Source of the DNA: an uncultured Alphaproteobacteria bacterium
GTDB taxonomy: Bacteria; Pseudomonadota; Alphaproteobacteria; UBA8366; JADFVY01
Assembly: GCA_947259105.1 (NCBI GenBank)
Contig: CAMYKU010000032.1
Span: 1 to 64,000, forward strand
Direction of reading: 5' to 3'
Length of the DNA stretch: 64,000 nucleotides
Translations under genes and position numbers: made by a program
Part shown: piece by piece, positions 13,317-15,414 of the stretch
Layout of the letters: each line of letters starts with the position of its first letter
Numbering within the stretch: position 1 is the first letter of the stretch
The notes under the pieces: model-generated
What the model was told of the DNA's origin: nothing
Database searches by the model: none
The model's input: the letters and a program-made list of their open reading frames with translations, nothing else

Positions 13317-13805
13317 TCATTTGCGCTCTCCCGGAAGGGCAATGGCGCGGCCGGCCTGTTTCGGCACCGGCAGCCCCGCATGTGCGGCCCGGATCGCAGC
13401 CAGCCGGTCGGCGATCTCCGGCGGGAACGGCGCCGATTTCGGGCCGCTAATGTCGACATGAACCAGCATATGCTCACCGGTGGCCAGCAGATCGCCGCTG
13501 CCGGCATGATACATGCTGTGGAACAGCCGGTAACGCTTTTCGTCGTGGCCCAGGAGTTGCGTTTCGACGCGCACCGCCCCGCCTTCGGAGACCTCCTGCA
13601 GATACATCACATGGGTCTCCAGCGTGTAGATCGAGGTGTTGCTGCGCTTGCGGTATTCCGAATGCTGGCCGGCAAAATCCATGAACGCATCGGTCGCATG
13701 GCTGAACACCAGCACGTAATACGCCTCGTTCATATGCCCGTTGTAGTCCAGCCAGTCCGGCCTGACAGTCGCGCGGTGCAGGCAAAGCGGCGCGTCGATG
13801 GTCAT
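13317..13805 (-). CDS. Hotdog thioesterase, candidate betainyl-CoA thioesterase (CdhB-like)
   Basis: RPDWLDYNGHMNEAYYVLVFSHATDAFMDF hotdog motif; divergent from BKACE and carnitine dehydrogenase genes; start at 13805 (MTIDAPL). Confidence 0.75.
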   Translation of the reverse strand: MTIDAPLCLHRATVRPDWLDYNGHMNEAYYVLVFSHATDAFMDFAGQHSEYRKRSNTSIYTLETHVMYLQEVSEGGAVRVETQLLGHDEKRYRLFHSMYHAGSGDLLATGEHMLVHVDISGPKSAPFPPEIADRLAAIRAAHAGLPVPKQAGRAIALPGERK

Positions 13806-14255
13806 GGCGAATCCCTGTCGTTGCCGGGAAGCATAGAGCATGAATCGGGTCGTGCGGAAGCGTCTCCGCACGGGCGAGCCAGCGTGGCCGCAATCCATGC
13901 ACTGCGCACTGCGCCAAATCGGGAAACTTGCTTTCGGGGGAACCGGCCTTGGCCGTTGTTGCCCTTTCGGCATTGCGCGCAGCCACCAGCAAATAGCGCG
14001 CAAATTAAAGGAGGCGCCAAGTGCTCAGACGCGGAGTCTTCGCATCGCACCCTCGCGGGCACATCCTGACGCCTCCTGAACCGTTCCGTCTGCAGCTATC
14101 TCGACCCGGTTGGCCCGAAGGCCTCCCGAACCGGTACACCTGCTGGCTTCCCGATCCACACGTCGTTCGGTCCGAAAACCTCGCGTCGTGCAATTGAATA
14201 TTGCCGGTCATTCAAATCGGTGGCAATAGAAAAATCGCCGCTGAAGTCATTTTCT

Positions 14256-14331
14256 TGTGGATTACATAGTGTTTATCTTGTGTATAACTTGATTATTTCT
14301 GTGGATAACATGGTGTCTTTCGTGTGAATAA
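14256..14331 (+). promoter_or_regulatory. Array of four DnaA-box-like 9-mers in one orientation (candidate DnaA-binding cluster or iteron-like operators)
   Basis: TGTGGATTA 14256-14264, TGTGTATAA 14279-14287, TGTGGATAA 14300-14308 (exact reverse complement of TTATCCACA), TGTGAATAA 14323-14331; starts spaced 23, 21 and 23 bp; AT-rich compared with surroundings. Confidence 0.6.
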
Positions 14332-14532
14332 GTTGCCAAATTCGCTGATATATCCGGCCCCTACCCCCTCTCCTCCCGCGGTGGATGACCGGGATGGGCG
14401 CGGCAAGCCCGGAAGAATCGCCGTCGCAAAAAAGCTTTCCCTGGTCGGTCGAACGCAAATACCCTGAGGGATATTCCACCAAGATGCGCGTCGTGGAGCA
14501 GGACGCTGGCCGCCGGTTCAGGGAGGAGAGAC

Positions 14533-15414
14533 ATGAACACCGATGTCATTATCGCGTGCGCCGTCACCGGATCCGGCGACTCGGTCGGCAAGCATCCGGA
14601 TATTCCCGTCACCCCGGAACAGATCGCCAATGCCGCCATCGAGGCCGCGAAGGCCGGCGCGGCGGTCGCCCACTGCCATGTGCGCGAGCCAGATACCGGC
14701 AAGCCGAGCCGCCGGGTCGATCTCTATGAAGAGGTCGTCGAGCGCATCCGCGCCAGCGATACCGACGTCATCATCAACCTGACCGCCGGCATGGGCGGCG
14801 ACTACGTGCCCGACCCGGATGACCCGACCCGGGGCATCGAGGGCACGGACCTGGTCAGCGCCACCGAGCGCCTGGCCCATGTCGAGGCGATCCAGCCGGA
14901 AATCTGCTCGCTCGACTGCGGCTCGCTGAATTTCGGCGACAGCCTCTATATCAGCACCCCCGCCATGCTGCGACAGATGGCCAAACGCATCCAGGAACTG
15001 GGCGTGAAACCGGAACTGGAAATCTTCGAGATGGGGCATCTGCGCTTCGCCAACCAGCTCGTCGCCGAGGGGCTGGTGGATGCGCCGCCGCTCTACCAGA
15101 TCTGCCTCGGCATTCCCTGGGCGCTGGGCGCGGACCCGGACACCATGCGGCTGATGCGCGACAATTTGCCGGACGGCGCGAACTGGTTCTCCTTCGGCAT
15201 CGGGCGCACGCAGATGCCGATGGCGGCGACCGCGGCGATCCTTGGTGGCAATGTGCGGGTCGGGCTGGAGGACAACCTCTATCTCGAGAAGGGCGTGTTC
15301 GCCAGCAACGCACAGCTCGTCGAACGCGCCGCCGAGATCGTGCGCCTGCTGGGCGGGCGCACGCTGACCCCCGGCGAGGCCCGCGAGAAGCTGGGCCTCA
15401 GGCCGCGCAACTGA
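14533..15414 (+). CDS. BKACE / 3-keto-5-aminohexanoate cleavage family; candidate dehydrocarnitine cleavage enzyme (CdhC-like)
   Basis: [60 protein letters not shown] ggagg before ATG 14533; followed by carnitine dehydrogenase. Confidence 0.88.

Follow-up and report, generated by a model that had tools for sequence, protein, structure and literature searches.

Four 9-nt repeats resembling DnaA boxes lie between a thioesterase gene and a divergent BKACE gene of a carnitine cluster in an uncultured alphaproteobacterium, and they raise two questions: which gene do they serve, and which protein binds them? The window, i.e. the whole stretch of DNA analysed, comprises 64,000 nt of contig C32 of the genome (G000; 4.2 Mb in 121 contigs). 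The first-pass annotation had described the repeats as lying in a single orientation at spacings of 23, 21 and 23 bp, with a pair of 17-mers identical at 15 of 17 positions, and both descriptions were confirmed, the former to the base. Its candidate roles were a replication origin, a DnaA-titration site, DnaA-linked control of the carnitine locus, and operators for a different regulator. Here we report that the control element is real and conserved, but was assigned to the wrong gene. An operator role, for DnaA or for another regulator, stands as a candidate; the gene regulated would be an overlooked minus-strand gene for a structured non-coding RNA (ncRNA). Features are summarized in Table 1.

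Table 1. Features of the intergenic stretch and its flanking genes (window coordinates; box positions in the last column are relative to the predicted RNA start).
Feature	Coordinates	Strand	Sequence	Remarks
Thioesterase (4HBT_2) gene	13320..13805	-		neighbour only; downstream of the RNA
Structured ncRNA gene, predicted	14003..14191	-	5' end GCACGACG, inferred	~186-189 nt
Conserved 3' domain	14006..14078	-		stem, then U-rich, terminator-like
Outer stem of 3' domain	14076-14065 paired with 14021-14010	-		12 bp
Hairpin I of 3' domain	14062-14047	-
Hairpin II of 3' domain	14044-14022	-	loop UCCGC	loop at 14035-14031
5' hairpin region	14079..14191	-	NUUCGG-type loops	enlarges in relatives to arrays of up to 15 such loops
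Former fifth box	14152..14160	-	CGATCCACA	part of RNA segment GUGUGGAUCGGGAAGCC
Predicted -10 element	14198..14203	-	CAATAT	17 nt from -35
Predicted -35 element	14221..14226	-	TTGCCA	family TTGCNN
AT-rich, UP-element-like	14227..14236	-	GATTTTTCTA	abuts -35 upstream; recurs in relatives
Extended proximal element	14249..14264	-	TAATCCACAAGAAAAT	family consensus TNATNCACA(A)RAAAWT
Box 1 (proximal)	14256-14264		TGTGGATTA	TAATCCACA on RNA strand (-); ~-69
Box 2 (distal)	14279-14287		TGTGTATAA	TTATACACA on (-); ~-92
Box 3 (distal)	14300-14308		TGTGGATAA	TTATCCACA on (-), perfect DnaA box; ~-113
Box 4 (distal)	14323-14331		TGTGAATAA	TTATTCACA on (-); ~-136
BKACE gene	14533..15414	+		neighbour only

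A predicted structured RNA on the minus strand

A block at 14005-14175 is retained at 83-92% identity in relatives. In a single-contig Rhodospirillales MAG of the same genus (G001; CP070634.1) it stands at 92% identity, and the intergenic sequence outside it has diverged. The same genome holds a second copy at 71 kb (83% identity) with two adjoining TTATCCACA boxes; G005 has the block as well, and in G004 it is truncated at a contig end. Its minus strand folds better than shuffled sequences (z -2.7), and its plus strand folds no better than shuffles. A protein-coding reading was rejected, as each frame contains a stop in at least one close relative and none is open throughout. From its conservation and folding, the minus-strand block is predicted to be an unannotated gene for a folded ncRNA. 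The first-pass annotation had also pointed to CGATCCACA as a fifth DnaA box on the other strand; the sequence is present but falls within the RNA gene, where the surrounding segment (GUGUGGAUCGGGAAGCC) hardly varies between close relatives, so that RNA sequence accounts for it better and it was rejected as a regulatory box.

A scan with a 19-nt core identified seven places in six named MAGs, including a Magnetovibrio. A covariance model of the 3' domain (73 nt, 25 bp) extended these to 22 of the 386 genomes scanned from the class (E<=0.01), with values as low as E 1e-19 outside the family, and further to more copies within the order and, in a phylum sample, to six genomes of one additional family; the phylum sample gave no match outside Alphaproteobacteria. 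The weakest model matches (L140 and L142) are probably false. The RNA is spread over approximately a dozen families of Alphaproteobacteria, and three genomes (G001, G226, and G346) carry two copies each. Plasmid records gave no match to an RNA query from a relative, and viral contigs gave none to the 3' domain core, leaving a plasmid or phage source unsupported.

Compensatory base changes back one structure for the RNA in both a fitted and an independent alignment. Among 40 distinct matches, 18 of the 25 pairs stay paired through double-sided changes (8.0 in shuffles) and 97% of cells are paired, falling to ~40-50% in partner-slid controls, figures that lean towards the covariance model since the alignment was fitted to it. 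The independent MAFFT/RNAalifold alignment yielded 20 pairs, 10 of which have double changes.

The 3' domain is kept across the family, with a C-rich loop (UCCGC or CCCGC), and the 5' hairpin array is variable. Predicted RNA lengths in relatives range from 134 to 999 nt with no more than 15 UUCG-type loops, and G346 has approximately eleven repeats of a single hairpin unit. Tandem, near-identical hairpins GGNUCGGGAAGCCUUCGGGCGGAACGGUCC (~30 nt, with a purine-rich internal loop) make up the 5' body, in 4 to more than 10 units, in L115 (Arabian12_MAG_54), L124 (G346), and L117 (Magnetovibrio). Members of family f26 (L182, L183, L186, and L187) carry a second, shortened copy of a 3' domain hairpin (CAGGAAUGCA..CCGCGUCC..UGCACCUG) 50-110 nt past the 3' domain of the RNA, downstream of a terminator-like hairpin. 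In genus g83, matches to the Rfam rpsB sRNA (RF01815) lie near the new RNA (L129 937-1059, L132 2108-2229). Neither in the window nor in relatives did any Rfam 15 family reach its gathering threshold at the RNA, the matches being chance-level or unrelated only, and literature searches found no description of the RNA; the family is undescribed and absent from Rfam 15.

Repeats and predicted promoter upstream of the RNA

Three of the four repeats match the consensus TTWTNCACA exactly, and the proximal one (TAATCCACA) has a single mismatch. Given that the genome holds 54 such sites, three within 53 bp are expected ~1e-5 times in it, and the cluster is thus more than chance; in the local 200 nt, 4 near-boxes were observed against 0.08 expected in dinucleotide shuffles, and no near-box cluster in the window is denser. 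The DnaA-box likeness noted at first pass is real and holds over a class-wide set of relatives: the AT-rich 200 nt upstream of 25 RNA loci contain 50 near-TTATCCACA 9-mers, compared with 1.3 expected. This shuffle count over the 25 loci provides the unbiased test, because the positions of proximal boxes and of the 17-nt spacer had been chosen by eye ahead of measuring. Both genus genomes also share a conserved pair of DnaA-box-like sites where another gene begins (G000:C65:19338 and 19499; G001:C1:1736899 and 1737061).

The proximal box (TTATNCACA) and its A-rich flank lie 37-39 nt before a TTGCNN -35 element in 24 aligned copies, the distance being 38 nt in 20 of these; in the window, 38 nt separate the start of the proximal box from the -35 element. 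The fixed combination of box and TTG at this distance is present at more than half of the loci and rare in shuffles. Alignment of 26 RNA promoters reveals that the proximal box never varies at T1, T4, and C8 (26/26) and that position 5 is relaxed as in the DnaA consensus, and that the flank RAAAWT is also conserved, beyond what a DnaA 9-mer alone requires. Matches to the extended element are rare, and across six genomes the only exact ones fall at RNA promoters. A -10 element is recognisable in the close relatives of the window and in about half of the others, and is weak or unrecognisable in several long members; in G018, where the RNA match is weak (E 0.005), the promoter fit is loose, and this copy alone lacks a TTG at the 38-nt distance. 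Most distal boxes consist of the 9-mer without the A-rich flank. Their spacing is two helical turns in the window and one turn (~11 bp) in many relatives, often as an array of TGTGGAWAA with an ~11-bp period (e.g. G346b, G347, and G250; read by eye).

Upstream of a ybjN-like/proC operon, both genus genomes also have one extended box whose distance to a TTGCGC -35 element is exactly 38 nt (G000:C44:6558-6573, L198; G001:C1:3358812-3358827, L197; gene names read from translations).

The genes adjoining the RNA differ by genome, and include sdhCDAB and asd/leu genes, rpsB-tsf, groESL, or the BKACE/carnitine cluster (names again read from translations); no regulator gene accompanies it among these neighbours. 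Because the RNA changes neighbourhood and the boxes move along with it, the boxes were assigned to the RNA. On this evidence the repeats are very probably the upstream promoter part of the structured ncRNA gene on the minus strand, from ~14191 to 14003. A protein occupying the boxes along a single helical face would activate RNA transcription from approximately -69 outward. Strong sigma70 promoters such as rrn P1 have upstream activating regions with Fis sites; the arrangement here similarly combines helically phased sites upstream of -60 with an AT-rich stretch before the predicted -35, although the sites are DnaA-box-like, not Fis-like.

Candidate proteins and competing readings

We lean towards DnaA as the protein bound at the boxes, since the relaxed 9-mer fits the DnaA consensus, the same box occurs upstream of hemE, and the boxes form multi-box arrays; the conserved A-rich flank RAAAWT is the reason for doubt, and the proximal box of the window, one base off the canonical box, also counts against DnaA. 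Binding by DnaA would couple RNA output to the amount of active DnaA, and hence to the replication cycle or growth.

A real, if less probable, alternative is that the boxes are operators of a non-DnaA factor that recognises TNATNCACA(A)RAAAWT and activates both the ncRNA and the ybjN-proC operon of this genus. The conserved flank and the fixed position relative to the -35 element are consistent with such a factor, and the second promoter, whose single box keeps the 38-nt distance in both genus genomes, makes a dedicated activator possible; the regulator may thus have a small regulon comprising the ybjN-like/proC operon besides the RNA. Against it, most distal boxes lack the flank, position 5 varies freely, as the N of TTWTNCACA allows, hemE is preceded by the same 9-mer, and no regulator gene travels with the RNA.

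It is unlikely that the repeats are a datA- or DARS-like site for titrating or resetting DnaA which the RNA promoter adjoins only incidentally. While this is the densest DnaA-box cluster of the window and several boxes are conserved class-wide, the strict spacing between box and -35 in nearly all copies implies promoter work, some genomes have two copies, and the number of boxes varies. The datA and DARS loci of E. coli are intergenic DnaA-box clusters away from oriC. Like them, the new site is intergenic, contains several boxes and is separate from oriC; it differs in that its boxes stand at a fixed distance from a promoter and in that no IHF or Fis arrangement is demonstrated. Titration of this kind would be compatible with the promoter reading, not exclusive of it.

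Control of the divergent BKACE/carnitine operon, as first proposed, is less probable still. The repeats do precede the BKACE start by 200-280 bp and the same-genus relative keeps this arrangement, but the upstream sequence read for BKACE genes outside the genus contains no boxes, a divergent GlxA/AraC-type regulator being found there in several cases, and the boxes go with the RNA to unrelated neighbours; as they do not follow BKACE, the carnitine-operator reading was rejected. BKACE is divergent from the GlxA/AraC-type regulator in other family members (L010 in G004, L013 in G002, and L011/L104 in G005); in the genus of the window this regulator is absent here and the RNA gene adjoins BKACE.

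The proposal of an unrecognised chromosomal origin fares worst. An alphaproteobacterial chromosome has a single oriC, as a rule close to hemE, dnaA or parAB, and in Caulobacter it is marked by hemE. A dnaA gene is present, and hemE lies on another contig of the genome (C1), with boxes at -391, -302, and -200, and at 1.30 Mb in the complete relative, with TTATCCACA at -397 and 1.2 Mb away from the RNA element. Hence TTATCCACA occurs 391-397 bp upstream of hemE in both genus genomes, and the hemE region is a likely Caulobacter-type oriC. Raw and codon-position-corrected GC skew of the complete relative gave no clear replication skew and revealed no origin. DnaA boxes next to an AT-rich stretch, and the Caulobacter oriC that likewise encodes an ncRNA, CcnA (PMC8959179), speak for an origin; it is nevertheless very unlikely, given the probable hemE-linked oriC elsewhere and two copies of the element in each of three genomes, and no origin genes are shared among the recurrent neighbours of the RNA. 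Plasmid iterons were rejected, as no rep gene was found among the Pfam-scanned neighbours and the 81 kb contig carries catabolic genes.

Known RNAs and the possible role of the new family

CsrB/RsmZ RNAs are regulatory RNAs with hairpin arrays of variable length and GGA apical loops. The new RNA likewise repeats similar hairpins in varying number, which may suggest a protein sponge, and differs in its units, which have purine-rich internal loops and UUCG-type caps, and in having a distinct 3' domain. The nearest precedent, though differing in location and control, is CcnA of Caulobacter crescentus, a cell-cycle ncRNA encoded inside the hemE oriC beside DnaA boxes, thought to be driven by CtrA and held to act on mRNAs through a C-rich loop (PMC8959179). 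Both are alphaproteobacterial ncRNAs of ~180 nt with adjoining DnaA boxes and a C-rich loop, and by analogy a cell-cycle link is plausible here. Compared by description, the new RNA differs from CcnA in lying away from hemE, and so outside the hemE origin, in its conserved 3' three-way domain, and in its promoter with a box 38 nt from TTGC.

A C-rich loop suits base pairing and an expandable hairpin array suits protein binding. The RNA might act in trans on mRNAs via the C-rich loop that its 3' domain exposes, and the array might serve as a variable scaffold or protein sponge; these are the weakest steps of the proposed mechanism, and the role of the RNA, whether in mRNA pairing or protein binding, is a guess. 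We propose, tentatively and judging from sequence, that DnaA could directly switch a conserved ncRNA of variable length via phased boxes, thereby relaying replication or growth status to gene expression, a scheme that may well prove wrong.

An RNA with clear covariation, a strict promoter module and a class-wide spread that is missing from Rfam 15 represents a substantial gap in alphaproteobacterial annotation, and, as an evolutionary pattern, a size range of 134 to 999 nt around a 3' domain that stays constant is unusual. Its DnaA-like promoter offers a testable hypothesis in which, beyond the Caulobacter paradigm, a trans-acting RNA is tied to DNA replication; if true, a DnaA-RNA circuit would have been kept in a dozen or so families and yet be unannotated.
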